From Calditrichia bacterium (GTDB lineage Bacteria > Calditrichota > Calditrichia > RBG-13-44-9 > J075), in the NCBI GenBank assembly GCA_028284905.1, contig JANQQU010000077.1:1-64000 (forward strand): a stretch of 64,000 bases of DNA, in the 5' to 3' direction. The position numbers and the translations under genes were made by a program. Below are positions 211 to 23,204 of the stretch, in pieces. The notes under the pieces are model-generated. The model ran no database searches. It saw nothing but the letters and a program-made list of their open reading frames with translations, and had not been told where the DNA came from. Position 1 is the first letter of the stretch; each line of letters starts with the position of its first letter.

Positions 211-858
211 TTAGCGCTGCCCGCCAATCTCAAACTTGATCTCGAAAGTCGAATGATCTTTTTTACCGGCAATCTCTTCCTGAAAGAAAGTATAACGGTA
301 TTGGGGACGAACGGAAACAAAAAAATTGGCGCGCGTGGTAACATCTACGCCGAAGCCGAACAATATATTATAGGTCATTTCATATTGACTTTCCGGATCG
401 ACCTGCCGAACGACGCCATTCGTACTGATGTACTGTTCTTTCGGGAAATTCATACCGTAAGCCATACCAACCTGTCCAACAATGTGCGGGCGGAAATTAT
501 CTTCAATATCATCCGCAAAGAGGCGCTTTTTCAGTTCAAAATTCAGGGGAATCATAAACATGCGGTTGGCGTCATTCAGCGTGTAATACTGATTCACGAA
601 AGGATCATAGTAAGGAATTTCATTGTCATCCCGAATCGCAAAAAACTCTAAATTCACCCCAAAATGCATGTAGCCAGGCAATTTAAAGCGGTACAGTCCC
701 CCGAGAGCAATACCATTGGTTGAAAGAGAAAAGGTGATCGCACGTTCGTTTTTATGCACCGGCACCGATTCAAAATCATCAAACTCCTGCGCAGTCAACG
801 GCATGGAGACGAGAACCAGTAACATCAGGGCAAAAGCCGTTTTGAAAAAGTTAGACAT
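211..858 (-). CDS. Outer-membrane beta-barrel protein, function unknown
   Basis: A 215-residue protein with a clear Sec signal peptide (basic start, hydrophobic core, cleavage near LTAQ at residue 24). The rest is alternating polar and hydrophobic strands rich in aromatic residues, with periodic Tyr/Phe, as in small outer-membrane barrels of the OmpA/porin type. No enzymatic motif is visible. AGGAG lies seven bases before the ATG, which supports the start. It is monocistronic, with its own terminator downstream. It probably sits in the outer membrane as a small pore or structural barrel. The family is not recognised more closely than that. Confidence 0.7.
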   Translation of the reverse strand: MSNFFKTAFALMLLVLVSMPLTAQEFDDFESVPVHKNERAITFSLSTNGIALGGLYRFKLPGYMHFGVNLEFFAIRDDNEIPYYDPFVNQYYTLNDANRMFMIPLNFELKKRLFADDIEDNFRPHIVGQVGMAYGMNFPKEQYISTNGVVRQVDPESQYEMTYNILFGFGVDVTTRANFFVSVRPQYRYTFFQEEIAGKKDHSTFEIKFEIGGQR

Positions 859-933
859 GTGGCAGCTCCTGTATCAAGTTAATGCATGAATATAACAAAA
901 ATTATCGACCAAAGTATAAGTTACACGACAAAC

Positions 934-974
934 TAAAAAAAAAGCTCCCCAATTTATTAAAATTGGAGAGCTTT
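934..974 (-). terminator. Rho-independent terminator of ssb
   Basis: A 15-bp stem with one mismatch (941-955 with 960-974, AAAGCTC...AATTT) lies 20 bases past the ssb stop. On the minus strand it is followed by an unbroken run of nine T. Confidence 0.85.
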
Positions 975-993
975 AATAGTTTGTAGGGCGATA

Positions 994-1425
994 TTAAAAC
1001 GGGACATCGTCCTGAGAAATTTCCATATCGGCCGGCGGTTCCATCTCCATCGGCGCACCGGCACTGCCGCCAGCACCGCTACTCTGCTGTTGAGATTCCA
1101 GCAGTTGGACATCCAGAGCCACCACTTCCGTAGTAAAACGCTTCTGTCCGCTCTGATCTTCCCAGCTACGGGTTTGCAGGCGACCTTCTACGTATACACG
1201 ATAGCCTTTTTTGACATATTCTTTACAAAATTCTGCGGTACGATTCCAAACAACCACGCGATGCCAGTCGGTTTCGTCTTTCCAGTTGCCTTCTTTATCT
1301 TTATAGCCGCGATTGGTCGCAACATTAAAGTTAGCAACAGCAGCACCACTCGGTGTGTAACGCACTTCCGGATCGCTCCCCAAACGTCCGATCAGAATTA
1401 CTTTGTTAATTGAACCACGAGACAT
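994..1425 (-). CDS. ssb: Single-stranded DNA-binding protein
   Basis: A 143-residue SSB that coats single-stranded DNA during replication, repair and recombination. The N-terminal 110 residues form the OB fold and start with the standard '[12 protein letters not shown]' strand, followed by 'EVRYTPSG' and 'TDWHRVVVW'. A Gln/Gly/Pro-rich linker leads to an acidic tail ending DDVPF, the conserved tip that recruits partner proteins. Length is typical for a tetrameric bacterial SSB. The start has AGGGGG about six bases upstream. It is separate from the glyQS operon upstream, with a gap of about 390 bases, and has its own terminator. Confidence 0.97.
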
Positions 1426-14803: not shown

Positions 14804-15185
14804 TATGTTGTTTGGCGTTTAGTGGATGGATGTTTTAATACGTTTATGAGTGACGCATAAAAGTTGAATACGAACTTGTGTGCTTATCTGCGTTGGCGCC
14901 ACGGAGAATATGGTTCCGCTTCGCTTATTGTTGCGCTCCTGGCGTCGCTGATGGCTCCGCTCCCTTTGGTCGCTAATGGTTAAAAGAAAATACATCTAGC
15001 ATATTAGCAATTAGTGACCAAAGGGAACGGAACAATTAGCGACCATAGGGAGCGGAGCCATACTGCTCAAAAATCTATACGATAACTGAAAACAGTTCTT
15101 TCTCACTCTTACGTCCGTCAAAAAGCTATCCCTCAACCATCAACGAACGCAGTAAGTGGAACCATTCACGAAAACCTTACAATCC
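14804..15185. other. Gene-free stretch dominated by a dispersed repeat
   Basis: About 380 bases between the small 15.2-kb gene and the helicase gene. Positions 14881-15062 are repeat copy 1 (listed separately). The bases around 14850-14880 also resemble those before copy 2, more loosely. The remaining 120 bases show no coding frame or terminator. Confidence 0.7.
14881..15062 (+). repeat. Dispersed palindromic repeat, copy 1
   Basis: Aligns end to end with 22921-23101 in the same orientation, with about ten substitutions and one single-base gap by eye (about 94% identity). It is built from one word of about 25 bases, GCTCCGCTCCCTTTGGTCGC or variants, in both orientations around an A-rich centre (TTAAAAGAAAATACATCTAG). 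No transposase is present. Confidence 0.9.
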
Positions 15186-15377
15186 CTAAAACTTATCACT
15201 AAAAAAATCTTCGTTCTTCTTAAAGCCCTGGTCAATCAACTTGTTCTTAAATAATCCAAAGATCCGGGACATTTCCTTGAAGGCTTTTTCTTCCTCCTTC
15301 GGCATCTTGTCCGGGTGGCAGGAATAATAAATTTTCAAAAACTCCAGAGCGGTATCGTTAAATGTTTTATTGGACAT
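15186..15377 (-). CDS. Small conserved-looking protein, 63 residues, function unknown
   Basis: The likely start is the ATG at 15377, with GAGG six bases upstream, rather than the longer frame from 15479, whose extra 34 residues come from low-complexity intergenic DNA. The product starts MSNKTFNDTALEFLKIYY and is charged and helical, with no Cys pair, signal peptide or membrane helix. It lies 130 bases downstream of the KAP NTPase gene on the same strand and may be co-transcribed with it. Not recognised. Confidence 0.6.
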   Translation of the reverse strand: MSNKTFNDTALEFLKIYYSCHPDKMPKEEEKAFKEMSRIFGLFKNKLIDQGFKKNEDFFSDKF

Positions 15378-15510: not shown

Positions 15511-18500
15511 TTAGAAGCGAATCGGATGGAGACCGAAGCGGGCAACGCGGCGTACCCAGGCCCGATAGGGCTTCAGTGTACCTTTCGTAGATGCGTTCAC
15601 CGCCAGCAATGTTCTTTCGATTCGCAGCCAGCGCGGCACGTCAACTTCCAGGATGTTTTCGCTAAAAGCATTTTTATAGCGAACTGTCTTTTCCGGCATA
15701 TGCCGGGAAGTCTCCGGTGCTTCCTTCGTTTCGGCCGTGTCTTTCTTTTTCAGCGGTTTTAATCCTTTTAAAAAGGTTTTCCAGGAAGCATTATCCGTCT
15801 TTTGATCGATTGCTTTAAAGATGGAAACGGCTTCGAAGGGGAAACCGGTTAAAACGGCCAGCAGTGTTAAAACGGCCTTGTAATCGTCGGCAGACGCATC
15901 TTCGAATTTTGCCAGTTCATCTTCCCCGGCGGAGGCGCGCACCAGCCGATAGGTATTGACAAAGCGATTGACTACCCGCGGCGTACGCAGGGCCGGATAA
16001 AGCGTTTTCATAAATTCTTTTTCATGATCCTGAATATCGAGATGGGGCGGATTCAGTGATTCTTCCGCTGCGTCGGCATCGCTATCGGTATTTTCTTCTA
16101 CCGCATTTGTTGCAGCGGCAGGCGTATTCTCTGGTGTCGCTGTTGCATCGTTTACGGCGTTCTCTGCTAACGCCGGCGCTTCTGTGACCATATTGCTAAT
16201 CGGCTGAGAGACAGATACCGGATCTTCATCGAGAGCAGCCGCTGCTGCCGGTGTCTCCGTTTCCGTGGTTGTCGTCGTTGTTTCTGTTTCCGCCGGGGTG
16301 GTAAATGCATCGATAAGCGAGTCAAATCCGGTTTTATCCATAGGCTTGATAGTAAAAGCAATCTGGAAGATTTTTTCCAGATAGTTCTGCGGCGTCGATG
16401 CCAGACGGGAAAATCCACTGCCCGGGCCACTGCCGTTCTGGCGATCGATAATAAGAAAATCAGGGTAATGTTTTTCCAGGGAGCGCAGCAACCAGCGGGA
16501 ATCCACCGCGACCACAACCACGAACAGTTTAAAAGCAAGCAGGAGGTGCACCGCCTGGAGCACTTCCACCACGCGTTCCGGTGGGCACCGATCAAGATCA
16601 TCGATGTAGAGAATAATTCGATCCACTTCTGCGACGCCTTCTTTACTTTCTTCGACAGGCGTCTCATCACTCGCTTCATTGGTCGTTAAATCACTGCTGC
16701 TCGACAGATTCTTCCAGGCCTTCCGTTTCTCGCGGGAATTTTTACTGAGTAAATCACTAAGATTGTCAAGGTCGCGACGGATCAGGGCGATAATTCCCAA
16801 ATGCTCCTGATAGTCCGGACTGCTTACCCGCTCTTCAATAAAGCGGAAGAGTCGCCGGCCGACTTTCATATCAGCAATTTGTTGTTCGAGCATTGCCAGT
16901 CGGCCATCCATTTCATTCAGCTCATTTTCGTAGCGGGCTTCTTCCTCACTTAGTGCTTCAATTTCAGCCACCTGACGTGCTTCCACCGCTTTCGCCTGCT
17001 GCATTTCCGGAGACTGTTCAAATTCCTTGGTGTAGGTATCTTCGACCTCTTTTACCGTACTGCGGACCTTGTTCATCCACATACTTAAAGAAGCGATGCC
17101 GCCGCCGGCAAGGGAGAGCAATTCCTGCAGGGATTCCAAAAAAGGCGCGATGGAAGGAGAATTCGCCATCAGCACCTGCATCACAATTTTGATGAGCAAA
17201 TAGACAATCACAACGACAATGAGCAGTTGCAGACGTTCGAAGCCCATGTTTTTCCCTTTCAGGAAAGACATCAGCAACATGCGCACTTCGCCCCATTCGC
17301 CTCTCATCTCCCGCAGCTGAGAACGGACATCTTCCACGGACCCAACTGTTTTTTCCAACCCGAGTTTTTTCAGGCTATCTTCTATCTGCGGGTTATCCTT
17401 GCGGAAAGTGGTCCAGGCGGTTTTTGCGGCACTGGCGACATCAAGCTTTTCGCGCATTTCCGCAATTTTATCGCGAACTTCGCCCAAACGATCTACTTTT
17501 TCCGCGCGCTCCGCAACGACCGCCTCTCGTTGATCTTCCAGGGCCTGTCGCGCTTCGTGGGCCAGTTCCAGTTCTTCGTAGAGAGCGGTTTCCTCTTCTT
17601 CCGGCGTGCGGGCATTCTTTTGGGCGATGTGGGACGCCAGACCGTCAAATATTCGCGCGGTCAAGCTCGCCCAAAGGTTTGCGTCGATGAAATGCCAGGC
17701 GTTGAAATGAATCTGGGCGATGTCCGACCAATAGGCAGGCTCCTCCATATAGCCGGGCTGCCCGCGTCTTTCTTCCACCACCCGCGCCTTGCCGGTGAGC
17801 ACTTGCATGCGCTTGACCATTTCCTTCATGAAAAAACTTTTCCCCACGCCCCAATCGCCAAACAAACCGATAGAAAGCGGCGGGGCAACATCGCGGGCGG
17901 CGATGACCGAGCAAAGTGCATTCACCTCCTGCTCGATATCCAGCTGATCTTCCCGGTCGAGATCATCCGCCATAAAACCGGCGATTGGCGGGGCAAATTG
18001 CGTTTCTGCAGTATCAGCAGCTTCACTATCTGTCGAACCGGATGATACATAATTAAGCACCTCCGGGGACCAGATGCTTCGAATCTCATCAGCTAACTTT
18101 TCCAGACCATCATCCGGACTCACATCTCTTCTTAGATGTTTTCCAAAACCGGCAATAATAAACGTTTGTTCATCTTCATAATCAGGATGACCAAACAACA
18201 TCGCCTGCAGCGCAGATTGAGAGTTTCCCCAGCTAATAAAACTCTCCACACGGCCGGCGTGGCCACGGATATCATCCAAGCCCCGGACATAGCCAAATGG
18301 TAGCGTCGCATTAGTTTTTGTTCCTTCATCATCGCTATCCAATGTAGATATGACTGGTCCGGCGAGATTCAATCCCCAACGCACCTGGTAAACATCCATC
18401 AGTTTTTCCGGTGCCCAAAGCGGAACGGAAGGCGCCAGCGAGAATTCGCGCTCCCGTTCAATATCTTTCAGAAAATTTTCCGGCAACGATTCCGGTTGAA

Positions 18501-19050
18501 GAAAAGTAATACTCGGCGCATCGCTCTGCGAATCGGTCTCGACATTTGCAGCCTCCTCGGTCACATTTTGCTCTTCACTGATGTTCTTCAAAAGGTCCGA
18601 ATACAAGTTCGTGCGGTTACTGTTTATCTGCTGCTGTGTCATCGGTTCATTGGGATTGTCCCGCTCCTCCGATACCTGCGTTTGCTGCTGAGATTGACTT
18701 TTCAACAAGTCTTCATCCGGATCTGCTTCATCGATAAACGCTTTCTGTTTGCTGAGGCGTTCGATGGTATCTTCCAGGTTGACGGTTTTTTGTGCATCTT
18801 GCGTTTGGGATGCGCTTGGTGTTGCATCGGTGGACATCAGAATCGTCATCGTAGAAGGACCAACAATGCCATCTGCCGGTAAACTATGCTGCTTTTGAAA
18901 TGCTTCAACGGCGCTTTCGGTATCCGGGCCGAACAAGCCGTCAGCATCCCCGCTTAAGTATCCTAGCGCGATTAATCTTTGCTGAATATCCTTTACATCT
19001 TTGCCCTGGGATTTTAATTGGAAGGTGTTTGTTTGTGGGGCTTCTGCCAA
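15511..19050 (-). CDS. KAP-family P-loop NTPase with N-terminal peptidoglycan-binding-like domain
   Basis: A 1179-residue multidomain protein. Residues about 8-70 form a PG_binding_1 domain ('GKDVKDIQQRLIALGYL', 'DGLFGPDTESAVEAFQ'). After a Gln/Glu-rich linker comes an unrecognised segment (about 200-340). The KAP NTPase follows, with Walker A 'LFGDWGVGKSFFMKEM' near 400, a long coiled-coil insert with two membrane helices ('LQLLIVVVIVYLLIKIVMQV'; a second near 650), Walker B 'ILYIDDLDRCPPERVVEVLQ' near 815, a Thr/Glu/Ala-rich spacer and a helical tail. KAP proteins are membrane-associated ATPases linked to signalling and phage defence. There is no signal peptide. The start is TTG with AGGAG seven bases upstream. 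Confidence 0.9.
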   Translation of the reverse strand: MAEAPQTNTFQLKSQGKDVKDIQQRLIALGYLSGDADGLFGPDTESAVEAFQKQHSLPADGIVGPSTMTILMSTDATPSASQTQDAQKTVNLEDTIERLSKQKAFIDEADPDEDLLKSQSQQQTQVSEERDNPNEPMTQQQINSNRTNLYSDLLKNISEEQNVTEEAANVETDSQSDAPSITFLQPESLPENFLKDIEREREFSLAPSVPLWAPEKLMDVYQVRWGLNLAGPVISTLDSDDEGTKTNATLPFGYVRGLDDIRGHAGRVESFISWGNSQSALQAMLFGHPDYEDEQTFIIAGFGKHLRRDVSPDDGLEKLADEIRSIWSPEVLNYVSSGSTDSEAADTAETQFAPPIAGFMADDLDREDQLDIEQEVNALCSVIAARDVAPPLSIGLFGDWGVGKSFFMKEMVKRMQVLTGKARVVEERRGQPGYMEEPAYWSDIAQIHFNAWHFIDANLWASLTARIFDGLASHIAQKNARTPEEEETALYEELELAHEARQALEDQREAVVAERAEKVDRLGEVRDKIAEMREKLDVASAAKTAWTTFRKDNPQIEDSLKKLGLEKTVGSVEDVRSQLREMRGEWGEVRMLLMSFLKGKNMGFERLQLLIVVVIVYLLIKIVMQVLMANSPSIAPFLESLQELLSLAGGGIASLSMWMNKVRSTVKEVEDTYTKEFEQSPEMQQAKAVEARQVAEIEALSEEEARYENELNEMDGRLAMLEQQIADMKVGRRLFRFIEERVSSPDYQEHLGIIALIRRDLDNLSDLLSKNSREKRKAWKNLSSSSDLTTNEASDETPVEESKEGVAEVDRIILYIDDLDRCPPERVVEVLQAVHLLLAFKLFVVVVAVDSRWLLRSLEKHYPDFLIIDRQNGSGPGSGFSRLASTPQNYLEKIFQIAFTIKPMDKTGFDSLIDAFTTPAETETTTTTTETETPAAAAALDEDPVSVSQPISNMVTEAPALAENAVNDATATPENTPAAATNAVEENTDSDADAAEESLNPPHLDIQDHEKEFMKTLYPALRTPRVVNRFVNTYRLVRASAGEDELAKFEDASADDYKAVLTLLAVLTGFPFEAVSIFKAIDQKTDNASWKTFLKGLKPLKKKDTAETKEAPETSRHMPEKTVRYKNAFSENILEVDVPRWLRIERTLLAVNASTKGTLKPYRAWVRRVARFGLHPIRF

Positions 19051-19148
19051 AGGTAGTCTCCTGTTTTGATAGACTTTAGGCTATAGGCGAAAAGGCATTT
19101 TAGCCGTTACCTACAGCCTTCATCCTAAAATACTACAGCCTATTTTAT

Positions 19149-22801: not shown

Positions 22802-23204
22802 GGACTTTGTTTGGTTTTACGCAAATGTATTCGTGCAAGCTAACGGCGTTATTTCTGCGTTGGCGCTGATGTTTGGGGGTATTCTGTGTGACGCAAATGT
22901 TGATTGTATACGAATTTGCGTGCTTATATGCGTTGGCGCCACGGAGAACATGGTTCCGCTTCGCTAATTGTCGCGCTCCTACGTCGCTGATGGTTCCGCT
23001 CCCTTTGGTCGCTAATGGTTAAAAGAAAATACATCTAGCATATTAGCCATTAGTGACCAAAGGGAACGGAACCATTAGCGACCATCGGGAGCGGAGCCAT
23101 ATTGCTGTGAGCGCCAACGGGCGAAGTTTTACTCTACAAAGACAAATTCACCCGCGACAAAACAGAATACCGATAGCCATCAGCGACCAACGGGAGCGGA
23201 ACAA
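22802..23204. other. Gene-free stretch with dispersed repeat copies
   Basis: About 400 bases after the serine hydrolase. It holds full repeat copy 2 (22921-23101), a loosely related lead-in at 22810-22920, and a further single word at 23178-23206 (CAGCGACCAACGGGAGCGGA). No coding frame of note. Confidence 0.75.
22921..23101 (+). repeat. Dispersed palindromic repeat, copy 2
   Basis: Counterpart of 14881-15062 in the same orientation. The core inverted repeat is 22991-23018 with 23047-23074, 28 bp with two mismatches. Outer ends also pair loosely (TGCGTTGGCGC near 22929 and GCGCCAACG near 23110). Confidence 0.9.

Follow-up and report, generated by a model that had tools for sequence, protein, structure and literature searches.

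The KAP NTPase encoded on the minus strand at positions 15511..19050 of the window (the whole 64,000-nucleotide stretch of a Calditrichia bacterium contig that was analysed) is probably a single-gene, membrane-anchored ATPase of a modular conflict family, in which a peptidoglycan-binding (PG_binding_1) fold would serve as a cytosolic recognition or adaptor module. The gene is an intact open reading frame of 1179 residues that begins at a TTG codon, with PG_binding_1 at the N-terminus and the KAP NTPase at the C-terminal side. On the predicted topology, a known wall-binding fold is placed where its known ligand is absent.

The N-terminal domain (residues 15–71; 18838..19008, minus strand) was assigned to PG_binding_1 (PF01471) by Pfam (E 6.8e-22; 77.9 bits vs. 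a cut-off of 23), with the profile covered from position 1 to 57, and also by structure. In an AF2 model built with 62 aligned sequences, residues 11–70 have a pLDDT of 92–96; Foldseek matches the domain to the N-terminal domain of SleB (6tci; prob 1.00, TM 0.88, rmsd 0.8 Å), and solved PG domains of wall enzymes match this region. Both the three-helix fold and the profile features of PF01471 are present, and within its peptidoglycan-binding family the domain is typical rather than degenerate. The original prediction had placed a PG_binding_1-like domain at this end of the protein and had left room for the first 80 residues having some other fold; the domain search of residues 1–80 settles this in favour of PG_binding_1.

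Export is usual for the PG_binding_1 family, though not required, and the KAP protein has neither a leader nor a hydrophobic segment before residue 375 (no 19-residue Kyte-Doolittle mean above 1.2). The TTG start is preceded, 7 nt upstream, by a Shine-Dalgarno-like AGGAG (19058..19062, minus strand), and the reading frame, followed upstream from this TTG to the first stop, contains no other ATG, GTG, or TTG codon, which rules out a hidden N-terminal leader at the sequence level. The lack of a signal peptide was thus confirmed as predicted, and a missed signal anchor, looked for by inspection of the start and by Kyte-Doolittle hydropathy, is not present.

The KAP NTPase domain, judged by profile and motifs, is complete. 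The Pfam match (PF07693; 98.5 bits vs. a curated cut-off of 20) is split by an insert, on either side of which alignment locates Walker A (GLFGDWGVGKSF; residues 395–406; 17833..17868, minus strand) and Walker B (RIILYIDDLDRCPP; residues 811–824; 16579..16620, minus strand). Both motifs are intact (Walker A, GLFGDWGVGKSF; Walker B, ILYIDDLDRCPP), and in 62 aligned proteins the key columns of Walker A, an FNAW motif, Walker B, and a C-terminal PR...N motif are invariant. The core is only ~30% identical to its relatives, which weighs against the conflict-family reading. The C-terminal helical domain (residues 1005–1179; 15514..16038, minus strand) matches the C-terminus of the family in both the alignment and the AF2 model.

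The Walker A–B insert comprises 420 residues and holds the membrane helix or helices; its long helical part, which includes coiled coils and the membrane segment(s), was delimited by AF2 and hydropathy at residues 480–805 (16636..17613, minus strand). One transmembrane helix is strongly hydrophobic (residues 605–627; 17170..17238, minus strand; Kyte-Doolittle 2.9), and a possible second membrane helix follows (residues 633–661; 17068..17154, minus strand; weak, hydropathy ~1.0). The paired helices of the original prediction are therefore favoured in part, by analogy and by an AF2 hairpin (H604–630, H635–677), although the second helix is weak (~1.0 vs. 2.9). Since just one insert helix is strongly hydrophobic, a textbook hairpin is uncertain; among 80 family members scanned, two insert helices exceed the threshold in 34 and one does so in 46. 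Within the C-terminal domain, a conserved helix contains a further hydrophobic stretch (residues 1060–1078), which is taken as buried.

Walker A and Walker B lie on either side of the insert yet form one ATPase, so the chain must cross the membrane an even number of times; on this basis the PG domain, the ATPase, and the C-terminal tail are all predicted to be cytosolic, away from the cell wall. The same topology had been proposed originally, and the argument for it is sound. The converse reading, that the PG domain binds the wall in the periplasm, reached for instance by non-canonical export or a re-entrant path, draws on the uncertainty of the hairpin, in which just one insert helix is strongly hydrophobic; we consider it highly improbable, given that the two Walker motifs must share one side of the membrane, that no hydrophobic stretch lies ahead of the ATPase, and that the other three KAP proteins found to carry a PG_binding_1 domain are likewise leaderless.

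Between the PG domain and the ATPase lies a linker and orphan segment (residues 75–360; 17971..18828, minus strand), mostly of low AF2 confidence and for which homologues were not found. Its 140-residue part (residues 200–345) had been put forward as a possible sensor, and this suggestion did not hold up: the segment has no credible homologue in 40 genomes of the phylum or in 385 genomes, no similarity by hhalign to Clp_N-like N-termini or to those of tree neighbours, and no confident fold, either when modelled alone by AF2 (pLDDT 36) or in the full-length model. The search of 385 genomes returned four weak, chance-level matches; of the three loci that were translated, the best encodes a DnaG-like primase, another a secreted beta-propeller-like repeat protein, and the third is an AAA ATPase/phosphofructokinase locus. 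In a Gemmatimonadales protein that also carries PG_binding_1 ahead of the KAP core (L047), just ~95 residues separate the PG domain from Walker A. Structure prediction of the whole chain thus gave a confident PG domain and an insert hairpin, and left this segment unconfident; a domain or shared sensor in this region was rejected.

When 84,980 species genomes were scanned with the core, 343 relatives were recovered, 80 of which were examined further, and Pfam was run on 83 N-termini of this KAP subfamily. The domains found at these N-termini are TIR (6), EVE (5), Macro (5), PG_binding_1 (4), Clp_N (3), and trypsin-like (2), with single cases of WD40 and of effector-associated domain 11; in one member (L031) leucine-rich repeats (LRR) occur with Clp_N. 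Since such varied domains precede a conserved KAP core, the N-terminus is a swapped module on a constant core; this core can also exist without an N-terminal module, as a few members (L029, L087, L088, and L103) have 120 residues or less ahead of Walker A. Separately, a more distant KAP protein with a TIR N-terminus is encoded in a genome of the same family as the bacterium studied here, and the Planctomycetota KAP ATPase with N-terminal Clp_N and leucine-rich repeats (L031, 5276–9298) has an NLR-like layout. These data indicate that KAP proteins with this type of insert, combining coiled coils and membrane segments, form a modular subfamily that is receptor-like and has exchanged its N-termini many times over.

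Based on these relatives and on the literature, we infer a conflict or defence role for the KAP protein. The original prediction had called such a role conceivable, and the TIR, trypsin-like, Macro, EVE, and effector-associated N-termini of the relatives strengthen it. Defence-like surroundings were seen for rhizobial plasmid homologues; for other homologues, the neighbourhood survey that had been suggested gave a mixed picture, taken without a baseline, of restriction-modification genes and many housekeeping genes. The closest homologues on plasmids come from rhizobia: they are “P-loop NTPase fold” proteins whose N-termini differ, and beside them lie genes for SIR2, nucleoside deoxyribosyltransferase, DarT/macro, VapBC, and integrases. 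One such plasmid (L028, 4690–10438) has an operon for a KAP ATPase, a SIR2 protein, and a nucleoside 2-deoxyribosyltransferase that resembles a defence operon. The plasmid search found no copy of the whole architecture, and no phage-encoded relative of the KAP core was found in 50,697 phage records.

The KAP gene is, judging by its distribution, accessory: 40 genomes of the phylum were searched and none yielded a full-length counterpart. The 63-aa gene downstream (15186..15377, minus strand), with function unassigned, belongs to the conserved core genes of the phylum: of 45 genomes searched, 31 have it, each in one copy. In G003, G004, and G005, all from the same family, the addA-like gene comes immediately after it and there is no KAP gene at this place. 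It was therefore rejected as a partner of the KAP protein. By eye from the sequence, an EamA-like transporter occupies the place of the KAP gene in G003, G004, and the same-order genome G007. Neighbours in the window include an ECF sigma factor, a CHASE2 cyclase, and an addA-like helicase-nuclease, and no defence island was found around the KAP gene in the window. The window also holds two copies (14940–15065 and 22982–23104; 96% identical) of a palindromic repeat of ~120 bp with GGTCGCTAATGG / TTAGCGACC arms; this REP/MITE-like element has 150 matching pieces across many contigs.

This distribution bears on whether the protein is instead a housekeeping envelope ATPase, acting as a scaffold in wall synthesis or division. 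An ATPase that is held at the membrane and bears a wall-binding fold could conceivably organise precursor export; however, the gene is not conserved across the phylum, relatives of the bacterium keep the locus without it, and TIR, trypsin-like, and Macro modules are attached to relatives of the core, all of which makes a housekeeping role very unlikely.

Four proteins among the 83 N-termini carry PG_binding_1 ahead of the KAP core: the protein described here, that of the Gemmatimonadales (L047; 62 bits), one from Paraliomyxa (Myxococcota) (L077; 27 bits), and one from Deltaproteobacteria/Myxococcota (L056; 21.9 bits, slightly below the cut-off of 23). The matches of L056 and L077 are diverged and partial (Pfam positions 1–37 and 2–42 of 57), and none of the four proteins has a leader. 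A search of 241 Myxococcota class genomes with the L077 N-terminus recovered no such fusion beyond these two. The four carriers fall at three places in a tree of 84 cores, which was built quickly and has long branches, and for which the PG group had been defined beforehand. A single origin of all four was rejected (p-AU 0.0045), as was a common origin of the Calditrichia protein and L047 (p 0.014), while a common origin of the Calditrichia protein and the Myxococcota pair was not rejected (p-AU 0.24). At least two independent gains of PG_binding_1 by unrelated bacteria are thus supported by the tree. That the fusion was made more than once suggests that the domain has a job inside the cell.

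One such job would be the sensing of wall-derived molecules in the cytosol, with the PG fold reporting wall damage at phage entry or lysis, functionally like NOD1/NOD2; candidate ligands are recycled anhydro-muropeptides, UDP-MurNAc-peptide, and the lipid II head group. Muropeptide signalling in the cytosol is known from AmpR and NOD1/2, which provides precedents for this reading. It would also suit a PG domain that is a standard, non-degenerate family member, that was gained repeatedly, and that the insert puts near the inner membrane, the site of lipid II synthesis. However, a kept binding surface lacks residue-level support, and two of the four PG-carrying KAP proteins (L056 and L077) have a diverged, partial PG match; on balance, we regard wall sensing as unlikely. 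The stronger proposal, a bacterial receptor, assembled repeatedly, for muropeptides or lipid-linked precursors freed when phages or effectors attack the wall, in parallel with NOD1/NOD2, is likewise doubtful.

Alternatively, the PG fold may be a protein–protein adaptor for a specific protein (such as a phage lysin or an effector), without a sugar or peptide ligand; this is a possible reading, which we hold tentatively. Clp_N, WD40, LRR, and the effector-associated domain are protein-binding modules, and the presence of these at other N-termini of the KAP subfamily is consistent with an adaptor. So are cytosolic proteins with PG_binding_1-like domains: OpcA of cyanobacteria (9emm) weakly matches residues 20–70 of the PG domain (E 0.0011), and OpcA and a Myxococcota protein with TerB and PG_binding_1 domains (L159) are probable parallels for cytosolic use of the fold. 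The latter (247–1311, minus strand) is leaderless and probably cytosolic, with a TerB domain and two PG_binding_1 domains. Against an adaptor stand the absence of an operon partner, the downstream 63-aa gene being a core gene, and the improbability of a homotypic partner: the KAP protein holds the sole PG_binding_1 domain of the 8.55-Mb genome at E 0.001, so that it is unlikely to pair with another PG protein in the way known from effector-associated-domain systems. Between a protein and a wall fragment as the ligand of the PG module, we judge a protein somewhat more likely.

Other PG-domain proteins were examined as parallels. Several of those in Gemmatimonadales and Myxococcota genomes resemble secreted or injected wall enzymes and are for this reason uninformative, with the exception of the TerB fusion. 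Two short leaderless proteins (L158, 1483–2142; L161, 1084–1722), both from a single genome covered by the Myxococcota class search, have an N-terminal PG_binding_1-like domain followed by a long tail that is acidic and histidine-rich. Two proteins of 776–798 aa from the same family as the Calditrichia bacterium (L010 in G006 and L012 in G005) have several PG_binding_1-like repeats and a C-terminus that is lysozyme-like by eye, and are possibly secreted or phage-type lysins.

For the modular conflict ATPase that we favour, the conserved core, consisting of the insert-split P-loop ATPase and the C-terminal helical domain, would be the switch and probably the output, and the N-terminus would be an exchangeable cassette, here a PG_binding_1 fold on the cytosolic side. 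The PG fold would bind a cytosolic ligand, which may be a protein or a molecule derived from the cell wall; the ATPase would then alter its nucleotide state or assemble, and the membrane insert would then act on the inner membrane.

A literature search, which covered few subscription papers, found no report of PG_binding_1 fused to KAP. SleB, endolysins, and L,D-transpeptidases have the same PG_binding_1 fold, with the full profile as in this protein; however, their PG domains act in the periplasm, cell wall, spore cortex, or virion, whereas this one has no recognisable export route. RdrA of RADAR (8fnu) is placed near the ATPase region by Foldseek (prob 0.99; E 0.045, not significant), but its insert is different and RdrB was not seen beside this KAP gene. 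QatA of the Qat anti-phage system is likewise a KAP ATPase, and the QatA profile (NCBIfam NF041923) matches weakly, at 80.2 bits vs. a cut-off of 600, which excludes assignment to that family; the QatBCD components of the Qat system were not seen beside the KAP gene. Tmn, a KAP NTPase with two transmembrane segments, blocks phages (PMC11846954), and by its description is similar in being a single KAP NTPase with membrane segments; the accessible text of that source mentions no PG domain, which this protein has. KAP ATPases also take the place of STAND in conflict systems that carry effector-associated domains at the N-terminus, and act in phage immunity (PMC8195603). The modules of those systems do not include PG_binding_1 (“peptidoglycan” is absent from the main text), and the homotypic partner is absent from this genome; they likewise combine a KAP core with interchangeable N-termini (eLife 2021 e70394, PMC8195603), and one relative in the subfamily described here has effector-associated domain 11.
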